A DNA stretch of 27,140 nucleotides from a virus. The translations under genes and the position numbers were made by a program. A model generated the notes under the pieces. It saw only the letters and a program-made list of their open reading frames with translations. It did no database searches and was not told the DNA's origin. The stretch's first letter is position 1. Each line of letters opens with the position of its first letter. This document shows positions 4,674 through 22,571 of this stretch, piece after piece. The DNA lies in the IMG/VR virus record IMGVR_UViG_3300023243_000229, positions 1-27,140 of that record. One strand, written 5' to 3'.

Positions 4674-4823
4674 TTAGTCATCCCACACAATTTTAGTGTG
4701 CTTAATTTTCTTCTTCATCTTATTTTTAATTACTTTGGGACGGAAGGGACCTTGTGGATCCCTTACCGCCTTTGCTTCAAAGTTGCGTACTTTCGGTGCT
4801 TGCGGACGTCGAGTACTTTTCAT
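4674..4823 (-). CDS. Basic miniprotein, 49 aa
   Basis: Highly basic frame starting MKSTRRPQAPKVRNFEAKAV with a lysine cluster near residues 35-45. It starts in an ATGA overlap with the stop of the HD hydrolase. Its composition resembles small RNA-binding or ribosome-associated proteins, but no family is recognised. Tiling and coupling support it as real. Confidence 0.7.
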   Translation of the reverse strand: MKSTRRPQAPKVRNFEAKAVRDPQGPFRPKVIKNKMKKKIKHTKIVWDD

Positions 4824-5320
4824 TGACCTAGTGCTTCGTGTGCGGCGTAGTGGATAGCACTACCTTTGACTTTGTCCAACACTTGGATAAGCAACAGCAT
4901 TTCTTTGCGGTACACTACATTAAAGCTAGGATCATTGTCGCCAATATCATGAGCGTTGTCTATGATGTCAGCACACTTAACAAACTGAGCTTCGTATGTT
5001 GCATCTGCACTATGCTGTCTATCCATTGCTTTACGTACTGCACGATTGCCATCTTCTGGCACACTAACATCAGTAAGACCATCAACGATAAGTGCAACAG
5101 CTGGTCCGAACATATCTTGTATATCAACAATGCTTACACCAGTGTCTTCAACAACATCGTGCAAGTACGCCGCAGAGATCATATCGTCAGTACCACCAAA
5201 CTTTGCAACAGTTGTTGCAACACGAATAGGGTGTACAATGTATGGCTCATCTGTGTATTTGCGCATCTGACCAACAGCAGCGTGAGCAGCAGTTGCGTAT
5301 GTTAATGCTTGATTTTTCAT
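4820..5320 (-). CDS. Small alarmone hydrolase, HD domain (SpoT/Mesh1-like)
   Basis: Probable (p)ppGpp pyrophosphohydrolase. The 166 residues cover just the HD hydrolase domain, as in Mesh1-type small alarmone hydrolases; no synthetase, TGS or ACT domain follows. Metal and substrate motifs are visible: YIVHP (residues 27-31), LHDVVEDT (53-60) and KCADIIDN near 115-122. The order matches the RelA/SpoT hydrolase fold. The ATG follows AGGGTAAGG, with a strong promoter just upstream, so it heads its unit. The expected effect is loss of stringent-response alarmones during infection. Related HD nucleotidases are possible alternatives. Confidence 0.85.
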   Translation of the reverse strand: MKNQALTYATAAHAAVGQMRKYTDEPYIVHPIRVATTVAKFGGTDDMISAAYLHDVVEDTGVSIVDIQDMFGPAVALIVDGLTDVSVPEDGNRAVRKAMDRQHSADATYEAQFVKCADIIDNAHDIGDNDPSFNVVYRKEMLLLIQVLDKVKGSAIHYAAHEALGQ

Positions 5321-7160: not shown

Positions 7161-7778
7161 TTAGCGTTTCTCAACAACTTCGTCTGCAAGTCCATGCTCG
7201 ACTGCTTCTTGTGCTGTAAGGAATGTATCAAACTTCATAGTTTCAAACAGTTCATCATATGTCTTACCAGCTGTGTTATGGCGTACATAAAGCTCTGTAA
7301 GGCGCTTGTTAACCTTCTTAGACTCTTCAAATGCTCGTGCAGCATCTTCAAACTGTAGCTCTTGTACGTGTACGCTACCGCTTGTGCCGCGTGTGCCTGA
7401 GCTTACTCTGTGAATCATTGTACGTGCTTCTGGCAGTACAACACGCTTGCCTGCTGTGCCTGCTTGTGCAAGGAACGATCCCATGCTACATGCTTGACCC
7501 ATTACAATTGTGCGCACATCGCATTTGATGTACTGCATGGTGTCGTAGATAGCCAGTCCTGCTGTTACAGCGCCGCCTGGTGAGTTGATGTACAAGTTAA
7601 TGTCCTTGCCAGGCTCTTCGCTTTCTAAGAACAACATCTGTGCTACAATCAAGTTAGCCATGTTATCTTCTACAGGACCGTTAAGCATAATAATGCGGTC
7701 TTTCATTAAGCGGCTGTAAATGTCATACGAGCGTTCGCCATTTGATGTTTGCTCGACTACCATAGGTACTAGTGGCAT
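7161..7778 (-). CDS. clpP: ClpP-like ATP-dependent protease proteolytic subunit
   Basis: Serine peptidase forming the barrel that degrades substrates delivered by Clp ATPases. Start at 7778 has AAAGGAAG upstream; the longer frame only shadows the neighbour. In the 205 residues the triad is visible: Ser98 in GQACSMGS, His123 in MIHR and Asp184 in KFDTFL. Spacing from Ser to His (25) equals E. coli ClpP, while His to Asp is 61 instead of 49, implying about 12 extra residues in the handle region. [19 protein letters not shown] is typical. No ClpA/ClpX ATPase is in the window, so a host or distant partner is needed. ClpS is encoded at 20841-21140. Confidence 0.93.
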
Positions 7779-7779
7779 A

Positions 7780-8007
7780 TTAATATCTTCCTTTGTTAGT
7801 GTTAAATTGTTTTGGGCCGTCGGTAGTAAATTCCATACCAAGCGCATTACCGACATATGTTTGGCCATTCCAACGCATGTGGATTTTGTTGCTTGCAACG
7901 AAAGCATCAAGTGATTCGTTTACTCTTACGTTGTCGACTTCGCACTCAACTTCCTGCTCGTTGCGAGTGTTTTTAAGCATTGCTGTCTTACCGAAATAAC
8001 TGTCCAT
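7780..8007 (-). CDS. Hypothetical phage protein, 75 aa
   Basis: Small beta-rich protein ([20 protein letters not shown]; later [11 protein letters not shown]) with no known domain; similar short proteins occur in other marine phages as far as I recall. The ATG follows GAGGTAGAT. Its stop is one base from the clpP ATG and its last codons form the clpP ribosome site, so the two are coupled. It is first in the unit under the promoter at 8042-8070. Confidence 0.75.
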
Positions 8008-8587: not shown

Positions 8588-9013
8588 TTACTCGGAGGAT
8601 TCGTATCGTACAAACTCTCCGTCTTGGATCTTAAATACGTCTACTTCACCGCTACTACGAATGTATGCGCGGCCACCGTCAATCATCTTGTCTTCGATTA
8701 CTTTGTAATCGTGTCGATGTTGACTGTAATAGTATTTACCTTTTGACTCAATCATTCCAAAGTCAAACGACTCTACTATGTCAGCATTACAAATCATTAC
8801 TCGTGCATCGCCAGCATAAGGATTACTGTATATTCCAAAGTAGTAATTACCAAACTCAGGATGAGGAGTTTCACGATAAAAGATGTCAGCGGCAAAGTCT
8901 CCGCCTTCCTGAGTTGCTGTTGTGCATATGTACTTTACAAGTACACCGTCTTTTTCTGTGTATAACTGTTCTGCTTTTTTTGTGTTAAACAGTGGCGAAT
9001 GTTGTATATTCAT
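8588..9013 (-). CDS. Hypothetical phage protein, 141 aa
   Basis: Predicted beta-rich soluble protein with many aromatic residues (FGNYYFGIYSNPYAGDARVM and SKGKYYYSQHRHDYKVI). No recognised family. It overlaps the end of the TilS-like gene by 29 bases in another frame; the start at 9013 is supported by AAAAGG nine bases upstream. Its role is unknown. Confidence 0.75.
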   Translation of the reverse strand: MNIQHSPLFNTKKAEQLYTEKDGVLVKYICTTATQEGGDFAADIFYRETPHPEFGNYYFGIYSNPYAGDARVMICNADIVESFDFGMIESKGKYYYSQHRHDYKVIEDKMIDGGRAYIRSSGEVDVFKIQDGEFVRYESSE

Positions 9014-9611
9014 CTTGTTTTACCTTTTTAGCGATAGTCTTATGGATACCAGGATTAACTTTTAATACGCTTGACATCATATCATGTCTAATGTAATTAC
9101 GAGTATAACATGTATCTGCGTTGCTGTCATCCTCAATATGTGGAACATTGTTTAGTCTTGCCCAAAGTTCTAAGTCGCGTTTGCGATTTAAACGAAACGG
9201 ACGAAAGATCCTATCATTACGACTGTAGGGGATAATCTTTCCTGTACCATGCATACTGCTCCACACCCAGGTTTCTACACAATCATCTAAATGATGTCCT
9301 GTAATGACGTCTCGTTCAGTACATCGTTCTAACCAATCGTAACGAACATTACGCCAGTATTCTTCTTGACTTTCACTAGCGTCTTTTACTCTAGTGTTAG
9401 TTGGAATATTAGTTAGCCAAGGAATGTCTTTTTCCTTACAATACTTTTCAACAAACTGCATTGCCTTGTGTCCGTGTTCAGTACCGTGATTAAAGTGTAG
9501 TACAAATACATCGTGCTTACGACTTAAGAAGTCAACTACTGCCATACTGTCAACACCTCCACTACAGGCAACATAAACTTTACGAGGCAATTTACCTTGT
9601 AGTTTAATCAT
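8985..9611 (-). CDS. tilS: TilS-like tRNA(Ile)-lysidine synthase, catalytic domain only
   Basis: PP-loop ATPase related to TilS, which converts C34 of tRNA-Ile2 to lysidine so that AUA is read as isoleucine. The 208 residues contain SGGVDS (17-22), GHHLDDCVET (about 107-116), then DDSNADTCYTRNYIRH near 160-175, the TilS-specific N-terminal pattern. Typical bacterial TilS proteins are far longer and have C-terminal tRNA-binding domains that are missing here. It may be a minimal TilS or a related tRNA thiolase/PP-loop enzyme; HLDD and TRNxIR favour TilS. The gene starts with an ATGA overlap with a membrane miniprotein. Confidence 0.85.
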   Translation of the reverse strand: MIKLQGKLPRKVYVACSGGVDSMAVVDFLSRKHDVFVLHFNHGTEHGHKAMQFVEKYCKEKDIPWLTNIPTNTRVKDASESQEEYWRNVRYDWLERCTERDVITGHHLDDCVETWVWSSMHGTGKIIPYSRNDRIFRPFRLNRKRDLELWARLNNVPHIEDDSNADTCYTRNYIRHDMMSSVLKVNPGIHKTIAKKVKQDEYTTFATV

Positions 9612-18445: not shown

Positions 18446-19615
18446 TTAGAATTGAGGCTCGGGCTTTGGGCTAGACACCATAGAGGTGCCCTGCATTGCG
18501 GTGGTGTTTTTTGACGGAGGAACACTTACCGGTGCTGCTGGCACGGGCGGCTGAGATGATAGGCGTTTTTCTTTTCTATACACCTTTTTCTCTTTGTCAG
18601 TCATCGATGATAGTTTTGTTTTTTCCTCATCTTCAGATGAAAACATCTTAATAGCAGATTGCACATCAGCATCACTATCTAGCCATTTAACTTTACGACC
18701 TTCACTTGTTGTATTTGTTTCTGCTCGAACGTTTTTGAATCCTACATCATTTCTACCATTCATGAAGCGCATAACAAGGTAAGGCTGATCTGGTCCTGTT
18801 GGCGTTTGTCCGTTAGCATACATTCTAGTAGCAGACATTTTACCGTTAGTAATTGTAGCCTCGCCAATCAATACGGCATCAACATTTGAAAAACCACGCT
18901 TGCCGCCGAATTCTTTTCCAAACACAATCTTGTTAGCAACGTCGGAAGATATGTGCAGACCAAAGCTCATCCCCTCTTTAAATGTTCCGCCGTTAACTTG
19001 CTTAATTCTGTCCATCCATTGTTTAATTTCTGGCATATTCATTAGATGCTGCCAACCTCCCCAACGGAACGGCTCACCTTTTAAACTAACCCATGCCCGG
19101 GGAGTGCCGTCTGGATCTAGTACAGTCATATCACTCTTTGGTGCACGACCGTTTACACTACCTTTTTCTTTTTCTACAGATCCAACATTTACAACAGTAT
19201 CGCCTACTTTAAGTTTAACTGACGGTTGACCAGCTTTAGCATCTTCAAGCTGAGATTGTATTTCACCAATTTGCCCCTGTTCGATCTTTTCACGTTGACC
19301 AGCTTCTTCTCCGCCAAATTCTTTGGTTTTAAGTATGGCGCCGAAGGGAATTATAGGATAGGTTGTATCTGTAGTTTTCAGTTTTAGATTAGAAGTAGGG
19401 TTTTCGATCCACTGTTTAACTCTTTCAAATTCAACAGGGTCTATAACAATATCAATAAATCCAGCTTTGGTCTTAACTTTAAAAGGAGTTCCCTGTTCGA
19501 TCTTTCGCAAAAAGACAGGGACTCTATCCTTTTTTGTACCCTTGTACTTAAATAGGCCGGTAGTGCCCAATGGGGCTTCGTCTAACTTTATGTCAACAAA
19601 TTCAAAAAATCTCAT
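18446..19615 (-). CDS. Unknown phage protein, 389 aa, possible PD-(D/E)xK-like core
   Basis: Starts MRFFEFVDIKLDEAPLG. The middle part has PKSDMTVLDPDGTPRAWVSL then KGEPFRWGGW, in which SDMTV and VSLKG could be the Asp and Lys strands of a PD-(D/E)xK nuclease fold; this is weak pattern matching. The C-terminal 70 residues are low-complexity, rich in S, P and T. No ribosome site precedes the ATG; TATAAATA lies seven bases upstream. It follows the bilin reductase by ten bases. Function unknown. Confidence 0.7.
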   Translation of the reverse strand: MRFFEFVDIKLDEAPLGTTGLFKYKGTKKDRVPVFLRKIEQGTPFKVKTKAGFIDIVIDPVEFERVKQWIENPTSNLKLKTTDTTYPIIPFGAILKTKEFGGEEAGQREKIEQGQIGEIQSQLEDAKAGQPSVKLKVGDTVVNVGSVEKEKGSVNGRAPKSDMTVLDPDGTPRAWVSLKGEPFRWGGWQHLMNMPEIKQWMDRIKQVNGGTFKEGMSFGLHISSDVANKIVFGKEFGGKRGFSNVDAVLIGEATITNGKMSATRMYANGQTPTGPDQPYLVMRFMNGRNDVGFKNVRAETNTTSEGRKVKWLDSDADVQSAIKMFSSEDEEKTKLSSMTDKEKKVYRKEKRLSSQPPVPAAPVSVPPSKNTTAMQGTSMVSSPKPEPQF

Positions 19616-19625
19616 AGTATGTTAT

Positions 19626-20309
19626 TTATACTATTTCAGGGAACAGGCATTCTTGTATAAAATGCTTAACATCTTCTTCACTAAGCCCTAAACTAACCAT
19701 TACCCGTGGTGTATGAGGATTACATTTCTGATTTTGTGCATAGTAGTTCTGCGCTGCTGTAGTATCCTCAGCAGTGTTATTTGTTTCTGCTACTGTGCTT
19801 AGATAATGCGCTATTGTAGTTTGAGCTAAATTTGCAATTTGATCTAGTTCTGCTTCATCGCTTACATTACCTGCGGCTACCATACTACCGCTAAAAATGT
19901 TAGTAGCCCATTCAGGTAGCGCACGTTGCTTGCGCCATTCTAGTTTAGCAACTTCGTCATGAAACCAATCCATCATAGGATGTTCGGGATCACCTGCTTT
20001 TGAGTAATCGTGGAAGCAGCCTGTGATCTTATTTTTACCAGCAATAACATCAAATCCATAAATTGGAGCTGGGTTATGTGTATGAGGGAAGATACAACAG
20101 TGCATCATCCATAGCCCTTTAGTTAGTCTTGCATCCACAACATCAATATGGGCACGACGATAAGCGTCACTGACCCACACTCGGTTTACCCAACCTGGTT
20201 GGTTGAAGCGATCCATGCTAGGCTCGAACTTTTCTGCGCCTGTTCTTGCGAACTCGCTGATCAGCAGGTCTTGGATTTCAATTAGTCTATCCCAGACCTT
20301 ACTCTCCAC
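19626..20309 (-). CDS. pcyX: Ferredoxin-dependent bilin reductase, PcyX/PebS-like
   Basis: Reduces biliverdin IXa to a phycobilin with electrons from ferredoxin. The 227 residues fit the family size. Recognisable parts are KGLWMMHCCIFPHTHNPAPI then YGFDVIAGKNKITGCFHDYS; Asp87 in GFD is the candidate for the conserved proton-donating aspartate. The C-terminal NYYAQNQKCNPHTPRVM and FIQECLFPE are also typical. It starts with GTG inside the last codons of heme oxygenase (11-base overlap), so both are coupled. PcyX from oceanic phages makes phycoerythrobilin; PcyA- or PebS-type activity cannot be excluded. No ferredoxin gene is in the window. Confidence 0.88.
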   Translation of the reverse strand: MESKVWDRLIEIQDLLISEFARTGAEKFEPSMDRFNQPGWVNRVWVSDAYRRAHIDVVDARLTKGLWMMHCCIFPHTHNPAPIYGFDVIAGKNKITGCFHDYSKAGDPEHPMMDWFHDEVAKLEWRKQRALPEWATNIFSGSMVAAGNVSDEAELDQIANLAQTTIAHYLSTVAETNNTAEDTTAAQNYYAQNQKCNPHTPRVMVSLGLSEEDVKHFIQECLFPEIV

Positions 20310-20844
20310 GATACAAATCCGTCATCATCTTAATGGCAAACTCAAACGCCATGCGGGCTTCGTCGCCTAGGTCGTCTGTTAGTGTTGCACGGATAGCACT
20401 CTTCATAGCATCACCATTTTCAAAGTCGTAAAATTTACCGCTTGAAATATGTGCTACTTGCTTCTTAATGATTTGACCACCAAATAGGTCGCCCATATGT
20501 CGGCAGTATAAATGCGCTTTAACAAGATGCTTACGTTCCGGATTATTGCCTAGTTTATGCAGGTATGCCTGATACTCTAGAGCAGCATCAGTTAGATAAC
20601 AGTAGCTACCGTCATCTAGTTCTAGAAAGTCTGCATGAATAGCATGTAGACGAGGAAGGTCGGGCATCGTGTCGAGGAATCCTTGACGAGTACAATACCA
20701 TTCAATTGGGTCGTACACTGCCATTAAGTTATAGAGATAGTTTCTATAATCTTCTCGTTCAATCTTACCACTAAGCAACATCTTGGCAAACTTTGTTTTT
20801 TCTGCTTCGTGATGCAGATCACTGGTAATATCTTTTAAGCTCAT
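20299..20844 (-). CDS. Heme oxygenase
   Basis: Opens heme to biliverdin IXa, CO and Fe(II) using O2 and reductant, supplying the substrate of the overlapping bilin reductase. In 181 residues the family motifs are clear: LHHEAE at 10-15 with proximal ligand His11, the partner helix near 36-50 (YLYNLMAVYDPIEWY) and distal helix MGDLFGGQ (117-124), whose glycines make room for heme and O2. It is slightly shorter than cyanobacterial HO1. The ATG overlaps the ClpS stop (ATGA) and has AGGTGGAG upstream. Unit order is ClpS, heme oxygenase, bilin reductase. Confidence 0.95.
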   Translation of the reverse strand: MSLKDITSDLHHEAEKTKFAKMLLSGKIEREDYRNYLYNLMAVYDPIEWYCTRQGFLDTMPDLPRLHAIHADFLELDDGSYCYLTDAALEYQAYLHKLGNNPERKHLVKAHLYCRHMGDLFGGQIIKKQVAHISSGKFYDFENGDAMKSAIRATLTDDLGDEARMAFEFAIKMMTDLYRGE

Positions 20845-21140
20845 TCTTGCTCCACCTGGACTTTTAAAGGGCTGCCGTTTGCACGAGCGATGTCTGTAGC
20901 TTCAATTCCACGTTGTTCTGAAATTTCATATGAATACACACCGGCGACGCCACTGCCAGTATTATGAATTTCCATAGTGATTTCAGTAGCACGTTTTTCA
21001 TCGTGCTTAAATACTTTTGTTAACAACAGAATGACCAACTCCATTGGTGTCTTATCATCATTTAGTAAAATTACTTTCCACATCTTAGGTGGCTGCAATA
21101 TTACTACAACTTTCTCGTCTTGTTTAACTTCTGCGGTCAT
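20841..21140 (-). CDS. clpS: ClpS, N-degron adaptor of the Clp protease
   Basis: Delivers proteins with destabilising N-terminal residues to ClpAP/ClpCP. The 99 residues match the family: LLNDDKTPMELVILLL (Asn27, Asp28, Asp29 form the alpha-amino pocket), MEIHNTGSGVAGVYSYEISE with His59 of the pocket, and a flexible N-terminal extension of about 20 residues used to engage the ATPase. Ribosome site CCGGAGAACAT. ClpP is encoded 13 kb downstream; no ClpA is seen, so a host ATPase would be needed. It lies directly before heme oxygenase. Confidence 0.95.
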   Translation of the reverse strand: MTAEVKQDEKVVVILQPPKMWKVILLNDDKTPMELVILLLTKVFKHDEKRATEITMEIHNTGSGVAGVYSYEISEQRGIEATDIARANGSPLKVQVEQE

Positions 21141-21171: not shown

Positions 21172-21465
21172 TCAAATATTCTCTAGATTGGGAATACTTG
21201 ACCACTTTTTAAGTTTTTCTATTTTAGCTCGTTTTGCTGAATGTAGATTGCCCCAACTAACAACATTATTAATCATTAGGATATCAATCATAGCTAACAT
21301 ATCACCCAGTTCTTCTTCTAGGTGTTGCACATTAGTTTGTCCTGTGCCGTTTTTAGCATTATCTGCACCAAACCGCCTAATCTTACTCACTGCTTGAATA
21401 ACTTCTGCGGCTTCCTCCTGGAGGATATCCATTACTTCGCTGTTATCGCTTACTGTTACATTCAT
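21172..21465 (-). CDS. MazG-like nucleotide pyrophosphohydrolase
   Basis: All-alpha NTP pyrophosphatase signature: ILQEEAAEVIQAVSKIRRFG (near residues 14-33) and HLEEELGDMLAMIDIL (near 48-63), giving the ExxE...ExxD metal site. The 97 residues make one MazG-like unit. Phage MazG enzymes hydrolyse (d)NTPs and have been linked to alarmone or host nucleotide-pool control, without settled function. The start overlaps the upstream stop (ATGA). An alarmone hydrolase elsewhere in the window points to the same theme. Confidence 0.88.
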   Translation of the reverse strand: MNVTVSDNSEVMDILQEEAAEVIQAVSKIRRFGADNAKNGTGQTNVQHLEEELGDMLAMIDILMINNVVSWGNLHSAKRAKIEKLKKWSSIPNLENI

Positions 21466-21716
21466 TTTGTTTCATCCGGGGTTTCTGGAAAGTGTCCAAT
21501 AATCAAATCCAGTGCTGCAATAGTCTGCATGTTAAGTCCTACATCTTCTATATGCATCCAATAACCGTCTGGATTGCTATCACTTTTTGGATTCTTTTTC
21601 CATTGCTTGATTTCTTTTTTAAGATAAGCACGGTATTCTTTTAGATTGAGACACGTAATACGATCAGCAGTCTCGCCGTCGATCCACTGATATGGTTTAT
21701 GTTTAGCTTTGCTCAT
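21462..21716 (-). CDS. Hypothetical phage protein, 84 aa
   Basis: Charged helical protein (LKEYRAYLKKEIKQWKK) followed by SNPDGYWMHIEDVGLNMQTI. No recognised domain. It is coupled to the exonuclease stop by ATGA at its start and to the MazG-like gene by ATGA at its end, so it belongs to the nucleotide/exonuclease part of this unit. Confidence 0.72.
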   Translation of the reverse strand: MSKAKHKPYQWIDGETADRITCLNLKEYRAYLKKEIKQWKKNPKSDSNPDGYWMHIEDVGLNMQTIAALDLIIGHFPETPDETK

Positions 21717-22285
21717 CGTGTGCTCGCAAAAGGTGCAATATAAGTACCGTTGATCATTGTGCTAGTACGCAATGTTTGATATACTGTTTGTACACCCTTG
21801 GCTTGATCAACTGCATCAGCTAGAGCGTTGTGTGCAGTAACAGTGGCACGATTTGGATTGATACCAATATCAAACAATGTTCGAGTGTCACGAGCTTCCC
21901 AGAAGCTCCAGGGAATAGCTTTACCAATTTTTCGGAAGTACCACTCTAAGATAATCAAGTCAAATCCTACACCATGGCTCCATACTCTCTTCCCGCCCCA
22001 ACAGAACTTGTAAAGTTTTGTCATTGCGTCTTCGATAGAGATACGATCAGTAGGATCAAAGGCTGCTTCTTGTGCGGCAGGACTTTGCTTGGACCACCAG
22101 TCTAGTGTACTTTGACTGACTGATGCACCAATCTTATCGCAACTGTCAACGTCAACTTTAATGTAGAACTTTTCCATTGTACTTTCACCACCAAATGGAT
22201 CAAACTTAACCGCACCAATAGTTAATATAGTTGCTGTAGGGAGAACGTCTAGCGTTTCCAAATCAATCATTACGTCTGAATTCAT
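21713..22285 (-). CDS. DexA/Rv2179c-like 3'-5' exonuclease
   Basis: DEDDh nuclease. Exo I: MIDLETLDV (Asp8, Glu10); Exo II: WSHGVGFDLIIL (Asp near 108); Exo III: AHNALADAVDQAKGVQ (His and Asp near 154-159). The length (190 residues) is close to T4 DexA (227), whose family includes RNA exonucleases such as Rv2179c, so DNA or RNA may be the substrate. It is the first gene after a strong promoter, with a 20-25 base leader. It would take part in host nucleic-acid degradation or recycling. Confidence 0.9.
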   Translation of the reverse strand: MNSDVMIDLETLDVLPTATILTIGAVKFDPFGGESTMEKFYIKVDVDSCDKIGASVSQSTLDWWSKQSPAAQEAAFDPTDRISIEDAMTKLYKFCWGGKRVWSHGVGFDLIILEWYFRKIGKAIPWSFWEARDTRTLFDIGINPNRATVTAHNALADAVDQAKGVQTVYQTLRTSTMINGTYIAPFASTR

Positions 22286-22312: not shown

Positions 22313-22341
22313 ATTATAACACCGAAGCAGGGAAAAGTCAA
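22313..22341 (-). promoter_or_regulatory. Sigma70-type promoter of the DexA-ClpS-bilin unit
   Basis: TTGACT (22341-22336), a 17-base spacer and TATAAT (22318-22313) with extended -10 TGT. The -35 box overlaps the stop codon of bS21. The seven tightly spaced genes from 22285 to 18446 would be expressed from here. Confidence 0.87.
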
Positions 22342-22571
22342 TACATTTTTTTAGGCAATTGGGCATCATGCAAATTCTTACGCCAGCGAGCTTTAGCAGC
22401 ACCTTTTTTGCGTTTGCGTTCTGTTGTAGGTTTTTCGTAGAATTCTCTAGCACGTAGGATATCTAGTGTTCCTGCTTCTTCCACTTTATTTTTAAATCGG
22501 CGTAGAGCCTGATTAATGTTTTCGTGTTCTTTTACCGTTACTCCGGTACCTTTCAATTTATTTCTTATCAT
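22338..22571 (-). CDS. rpsU: Ribosomal protein bS21
   Basis: Small-subunit protein next to the anti-Shine-Dalgarno end of 16S rRNA, needed for initiation on many mRNAs. The 77 residues show the family layout: [20 protein letters not shown] (about 10-29), then [20 protein letters not shown] and an arginine/lysine-rich helix. It has about ten extra N-terminal residues ([10 protein letters not shown]) compared with bacterial S21. It overlaps the upstream gene by 14 bases. Phage-encoded bS21 is known, including from pelagiphages, and may replace the host copy on ribosomes. Confidence 0.94.

Follow-up and report, generated by a model that had tools for sequence, protein, structure and literature searches.

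Loci that pair a heme oxygenase gene with a bilin reductase gene, hemO-pcyX and hemO-pcyA/X-valaS, have been published for marine and freshwater phages (PMC11480375). The carriage of heme oxygenase and bilin reductases by phages that are not photosynthetic has been called enigmatic, and iron supply has been proposed as a role of phage hemO (PMC11480375). An earlier note on the DNA described here had ascribed the combination of heme oxygenase and PcyX to uncultured oceanic phages; the combination is indeed known, but not only from there, since it also occurs in freshwater and in the isolated pelagiphage Mosig. ClpS is not mentioned in the text of the main paper on hemO and pcyX (PMC11480375), and no paper linking ClpS or chaperones with a phage heme oxygenase was found in the open-access literature searched, subscription journals and preprints being outside the scope of this search. 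Thus, the view that a direct link of ClpS to heme oxygenase and PcyX had not been described agrees with this literature: while hemO-pcyX is already known, its joining with a proteostasis operon appears to be undescribed in what was searched.

The DNA analysed, called the window in its full length, is a virus record of 27,140 bases with the gene content of a large tailed phage, including a topoisomerase II-like subunit, an ATP-dependent DNA ligase, S21, MazG and ClpP. Its minus strand carries, in the order of transcription, clpS, a heme oxygenase (HO) gene and a bilin reductase gene. ClpS, the N-degron adaptor of ClpAP, is encoded at 20841..21140 (99 amino acids; PF02617 ClpS, 93.3 bits), HO at 20299..20844 (181 amino acids; PF01126 Heme_oxygenase, 76.4 bits) and a pcyX-type ferredoxin-dependent bilin reductase, with a GTG start, at 19626..20309 (227 amino acids; PF05996 Fe_bilin_red, 45.9 bits), all three scores lying above the curated Pfam cut-offs. 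The stop codon of clpS and the start codon of the HO gene overlap in an ATGA (20841..20844, minus strand), with a GGAG a few nucleotides 5' of the HO ATG, and the HO gene and pcyX share 11 nucleotides (20299..20309, minus strand) with a GTG restart that has no clear Shine–Dalgarno sequence. Three overlapping genes at these positions, the ATGA and the 11-base overlap with its GTG restart had all been reported in the earlier note, and the sequence bears this out, with the genes on the minus strand. We infer that the cassette genes are co-translated, and the overlaps make a coupled stoichiometry of ClpS, HO and PcyX plausible.

Upstream on the same strand lie genes for a MazG-like pyrophosphohydrolase (21172..21465; PF03819), an 84-amino-acid open reading frame with no assigned function that overlaps its neighbours on both sides (21462..21716), an Rv2179c-like 3'-5' exoribonuclease (21713..22285; PF16473) and a ribosomal protein S21 homologue (22338..22571; PF01165), the last two being upstream neighbours conserved by synteny. 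The array from the exonuclease gene to pcyX is preceded by a putative promoter, TTGACT-17-TATAAT with a TG (22313..22341, minus strand); this is a consensus match only, the best (11/12) of 17 promoter-like sites in a window in which shuffled sequences led us to expect 15.5. On the 3' side of pcyX, a phrog_13937 gene (18446..19615, minus strand, 389 amino acids) is not kept beside pcyX in most relatives. Outside the cassette, the window encodes ClpP (7161..7787, minus strand) with intact Ser and His motifs, which is the likely protease partner of the cassette ClpS. Elsewhere in the window, an HD_4 domain protein (4820-5320) resembles small ppGpp hydrolases and may counter the stringent response, and a PP-loop ATPase (ATP_bind_3; 8985-9611) is similar to the tRNA-lysidine synthetase TilS.

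By tree, active-site signature and fold model, the reductase is PcyX, as the earlier note had proposed, and it does not fall outside the bilin reductases. Its best match in the PDB is 5owg, i.e. PcyX_EBK42635 (E 3e-69), compared with E 3e-13 for PcyA, and a maximum-likelihood tree places it on the PcyX side (support 99/95), where Mosig, 5owg and every cassette sequence also fall. PcyA of Synechocystis and its counterparts from four cyanophages are on the opposite side of this tree, with PebS as the outgroup; as long branches separate PcyA, PcyX and PebS, only the side and not the deep branching is used here. An identity as PcyA is excluded by the match strengths and the tree. According to the literature, PcyX lacks the Glu76 of PcyA, and a role has been assigned to its Asp55; in the window reductase, an Asp replaces Glu76, and the equivalents of His88 and Asp105 are retained. 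The resulting Asp-His-Asp signature (D56, H70, D87) is found in all 30 PcyX-side rows of the tree alignment, as against E-H-D in all five PcyA sequences. Among fold matches of the AlphaFold model (pLDDT 92.6), 5owg ranks first. The enzyme thus carries the signature of a phycoerythrobilin synthase and is predicted to convert biliverdin to phycoerythrobilin. With 50-52% identity to Mosig PcyX, its position in the tree and its clpS context, it belongs to a clade separate from that of the hemO-pcyX pelagiphages (Mosig/EBK42635). Plasmid-borne relatives of the window reductase were not found. The region 19626-20309 also matches PDB entries 8xks and 8xqw, a PcyA-like subunit in the Chlamydomonas FtsHi motor complex, which is a precedent for a bilin reductase homologue attached to an AAA+ machine.

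The HO of the window is short (181 amino acids) but has HO-1-type motifs and, in its model, an HO fold: both the proximal-His motif HHEAE and the distal-helix motif GDLFGGQ are present, and the top 50 fold matches of the AlphaFold model (pLDDT 88.8) are all heme oxygenases with a TM of about 0.8. Among 218 distinct HO sequences, the exact motif is missing in eight, three of which read GDLSGGR or GDLSGGK. When linked at more than 60% identity, the HO sequences form three families and one singleton, and these are shuffled relative to the reductase. Where two loci have PcyX at least 85% identical, their HO is less than 50% identical in 227 of 497 pairs, and on an approximate (FastTree) PcyX tree of 104 rows the HO family switches at least 25 times. 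HO families below 50% identity beside nearly identical PcyX indicate that the position of the slot is kept while its alleles are exchanged. In one relative, a 515-amino-acid open reading frame whose start resembles an FAD-dependent (halogenase-like) enzyme lies between the HO gene and pcyX (L048:4503-6050).

ClpS of the window matches E. coli ClpS with E 3.5e-19. The N-degron pocket of the E. coli protein, which we take to consist of N34, D35, D36, T38, P39, M40, V43, M62, V65, H66 and L99, is reproduced in the window protein except for a Thr at M62 and an Ile at V65. In a set of 164 distinct ClpS proteins from cassettes, the equivalents of Asp35, Thr38, Val43, His66 and Leu99 never vary, those of Asn34 and Pro39 each do so in a single protein, Met is retained at the Met40 position in 153, and Thr stands at the Met62 position in 125. 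At E79 and K84 (E. coli numbering), the positions that contact ClpA, all 164 proteins have E and 161 have K or R, the window protein having E72 and R77. The retention of both the pocket and the E79/K84 positions argues that ClpS is under selection as an adaptor, and each of 16 long relatives described below has a single ClpS. In the window protein, LQPP stands before the core (for Pro24-Pro25 of ClpS, see PMC9663308).

The pairing of clpS with hemO-pcyX is an old and conserved feature of many uncultured freshwater and marine phages (labels that reflect our reading of the surrounding IMG/VR records), usually together with heat-shock chaperones. A scan of IMG/VR with the window reductase gave 381 relatives, and the best 79 loci nearly all read S21-exonuclease-MazG-(two genes)-clpS-HO-pcyX, where the two genes between MazG and clpS, present there in most relatives, encode DnaK (PF00012) and an IbpA-like Hsp20 (PF00011). 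In a scan started from ClpS, DnaK, Hsp20, ClpS, HO and PcyX were all present in 67 of the best 80 loci, and the end of the contig cuts most of the others; each of these lists is made up of the best 80 from its scan, close relatives included, and is not a random sample. After de-duplication, 103 of 104 loci have clpS, HO and pcyX on one strand, and all 103 have them in this order. The gap between clpS and HO is exactly -4 nucleotides in 65 of the 103, and the ClpS reading frame ends in ATGA in 83. Wider spacing occurs among the 104 loci as well, with HO and PcyX more than 200 bp apart in seven and ClpS and HO more than 100 bp apart in 20.

This order is not confined to one clade. Hsp20-ClpS-HO-PcyX is kept in four contigs, marine or saline and binned with bacterial genomes (L083-L086), whose PcyX is only 52-54% identical, and a scan from one of them revealed a second clade of PcyX, at about 53% identity, in which ClpS and HO lie upstream in 70 of 74 loci, counting those of the best 80 with at least 3 kb of upstream sequence. 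In the remaining four (L213, L215, L219, L221), pcyX has neither HO nor ClpS upstream. A unique or chance arrangement is therefore rejected by the order in 103 relatives and a second clade, and the gene-order survey suggested in the earlier note has shown the cassette to be conserved rather than peculiar to one contig. In a scan of the Mosig clade, however, with 45 testable loci among the best 80, HO was present in 45/45, and adjoining ClpS, Hsp20 or DnaK in 0/45. One 6-kb contig (L137) consists of an inverted duplication of the dnaK-hsp20-clpS-HO stretch and has probably arisen as an artefact of assembly or amplification. In some relatives, the cassette is followed 3' of pcyX by a curli module with CsgF, CsgG, curlin-repeat and FecR-domain proteins (L006:8555-12518, also L002, L048 and L071). 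A curli cluster is known from pelagimyophages (PMC7029224); a link to the clpS-HO-pcyX cassette is not known to have been described.

The usual unit is therefore dnaK-hsp20-clpS-HO-pcyX, of which the window contains a reduced form that lacks both dnaK and hsp20. The cassette of the earlier note, clpS-HO-pcyX, stands, but is part of this fuller unit, which the note did not contain, and neither did it contain the clpP of the window. The MazG-clpS junction without dnaK and hsp20 recurs in a second IMG/VR contig that is 99.5% identical and may represent the same population of viruses; with this proviso, the shared junction speaks against an assembly slip as the cause of the missing genes. Another relative (G012/L141) also lacks dnaK and hsp20 at this junction. 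DnaK was present in 14 of 17 records, and none was found elsewhere in the three without it (the L001 contig, G012 and G013).

A wider proteostasis set emerged from 16 cassette-carrying contigs of 99-364 kb, which may themselves be incomplete. ClpA (Clp_N) is encoded in ten of them, usually in a DnaJ-peptide deformylase-ClpA block, which is conserved in L181, L182, L185, L187 and L180 (e.g. L181:2403-6074), and ClpP in 13; the window itself encodes ClpP and no ClpA in its 27 kb. The best NCBIfam match of the phage ClpA is TIGR02639 ClpA with 880 bits, below the curated cut-off of 993, E. coli ClpA is the PDB entry that it matches best, and both Walker A motifs and the ClpP-docking IGF loop are present in nine out of nine complete copies. 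With ClpA, ClpP and ClpS all encoded among the relatives, phages of this kind could produce a ClpAPS protease of their own. GrpE was not found in any of the 16 contigs. Leucyl/phenylalanyl transferase was likewise found in none, which speaks against a complete N-end rule pathway on the phage.

The same 16 contigs were searched for partners of tetrapyrrole metabolism. A ferredoxin, i.e. a phage-encoded electron donor for PcyX, is encoded in none, and the light-harvesting set of cyanophages is missing as well: psbA (Photo_RC), phytochrome (PHY domain) and phycobiliprotein above the cut-off were each found in 0/16, with weak phycobiliprotein matches mostly in reading frames of more than 2000 amino acids. 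These absences favour heme disposal over light harvesting, and those of phytochrome and phycobiliprotein weigh against the idea, raised in the earlier note, that the phage protects a bilin-binding target. 5-Aminolevulinate synthase (valaS) is encoded in five of the 16. In L171 (G011:328683-332228), this gene adjoins clpP, another neighbourhood of tetrapyrrole and Clp genes. In one relative, DnaK shares 70-72% identity with beta/gammaproteobacterial DnaK from a plasmid collection, which suggests a proteobacterial host.

What, then, could join these genes? The reading we favour, although tentatively and with rather less than even confidence, is that the conserved operon, reduced in the window, joins N-degron and protein quality control to heme-to-bilin conversion, that is, protein dismantling to heme disposal. 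During infection, Hsp20/DnaK and ClpS-ClpAP would take apart selected or damaged proteins of the host. The heme released in this process would be toxic and iron-rich, and HO would open it to biliverdin, CO and Fe2+; that the phage may release heme from host proteins had been suggested in the earlier note. PcyX, with host ferredoxin, would then reduce biliverdin to the pink pigment phycoerythrobilin, thereby relieving HO of its product and disposing of it, and the phage would gain iron as well as protection against free heme. The conserved order in both clades, the intact ClpS, the phage-encoded ClpA, ClpP and DnaK, and DnaJ and peptide deformylase near ClpA all count in favour. The more specific proposition that the N-degron protease is functionally coupled to heme catabolism, with ClpS-ClpAP and DnaK/Hsp20 stripping host hemoproteins and HO-PcyX from the same message clearing the heme to phycoerythrobilin and recovering iron, we consider somewhat unlikely; an action of ClpS on heme proteins is its predicted link. 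Nearly as likely as the favoured reading is a shared timing, in which the sets dnaK-hsp20-clpS and hemO-pcyX are simply wanted simultaneously, with no common substrate. Hsp20 and ClpS are adjacent in PA5oct and close in Phosso without HO as a neighbour, so that ClpS may be a member of the chaperone set alone; HO-PcyX occurs without ClpS in all 45 Mosig-clade loci, so that heme disposal does not need ClpS; and the spacing between the cassette genes is wide in the minority of loci given above. However, timing alone would need neither an ATGA overlap nor a fixed order, whereas a translational overlap is kept in most relatives and the order in two deep clades.

ALA synthase in five long relatives also counts against the favoured reading, as it adds tetrapyrrole rather than just removing it, and if iron were the sole aim HO alone would do. 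Its presence counts in favour of a control of heme supply, in which phage ClpS would steer ClpAP to or from the enzyme with which the host forms 5-aminolevulinate (HemA or ALAS) and HO would remove existing heme. There is a precedent in Arabidopsis, where ClpS1 binds GluTR at its N-terminus, and in the turnover of bacterial GluTR by Clp and Lon proteases (PMC6597238). Yet a phage ALA synthase would work against any shut-down of heme synthesis, and valaS is absent from most of the long relatives examined, which makes this the least probable of the explanations considered. Only slightly less improbable is that phycoerythrobilin is itself the goal, as the chromophore or ligand of a bilin-binding protein, either of the host or of the phage and unrecognised there, in light sensing, photoprotection or signalling, with ClpS and chaperones aiding turnover of the apoprotein. 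D-H-D in every PcyX-side sequence examined does suggest selection for a defined bilin product, and related phage enzymes make PEB or PCB, the PCB of phage CB_2 assembling phytochrome (PMC11480375). Still, bilin-binding partners and psbA are missing in the long relatives, incomplete as these contigs may be, and the relative's DnaK being nearest to beta/gammaproteobacterial DnaK points away from cyanobacterial hosts; a use as chromophore is thus disfavoured.

Overall, two large PcyX clades have these genes fixed behind clpS and heat-shock chaperones, and the clade studied biochemically lacks these companions. This offers a lead that phage bilin synthesis is tied to protein turnover rather than to light harvesting, and it points to a near-complete phage-made ClpAPS/DnaK network.

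Among known systems, hemO-pcyX of the pelagiphages (Mosig; PcyX_EBK42635; PMC11480375) is similar in its overlapping gene pair, its enzyme families and the PcyX signature, and published loci include valaS, as do some of the long relatives here. In loci of the Mosig clade, however, the pair has no clpS, hsp20 or dnaK beside it, and in Mosig itself its companions are 2OG-Fe(II) oxygenases and a putative ferrochelatase. The freshwater phage CB_2 is likewise a large freshwater phage with hemO and a bilin reductase (hemO-pcyA*; PMC11480375), but its enzyme is a true PcyA without the Asp55 of PcyX, whereas the window enzyme has this Asp and groups with PcyX. The jumbo phages PA5oct and Phosso share Hsp20 near ClpS, with S21 in PA5oct, and a phage ClpA elsewhere, yet their clpS has no adjoining heme oxygenase or bilin reductase. 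The moraphages (PMC12619734), which are aquatic jumbo phages, also have DnaK, DnaJ, Hsp20 and ClpA, but their DnaK is of the Bacteroidota type, and the words heme, bilin and curli are absent from the paper describing them. E. coli ClpAPS, finally, is matched in the pocket of ClpS, the IGF/IGL docking loop of ClpA and the Ser/His motifs of ClpP; it differs in that the proteins described here are phage-encoded, have Thr at the Met62 position in most cassette ClpS and are accompanied by leucyl/phenylalanyl transferase in none of the 16 long relatives.
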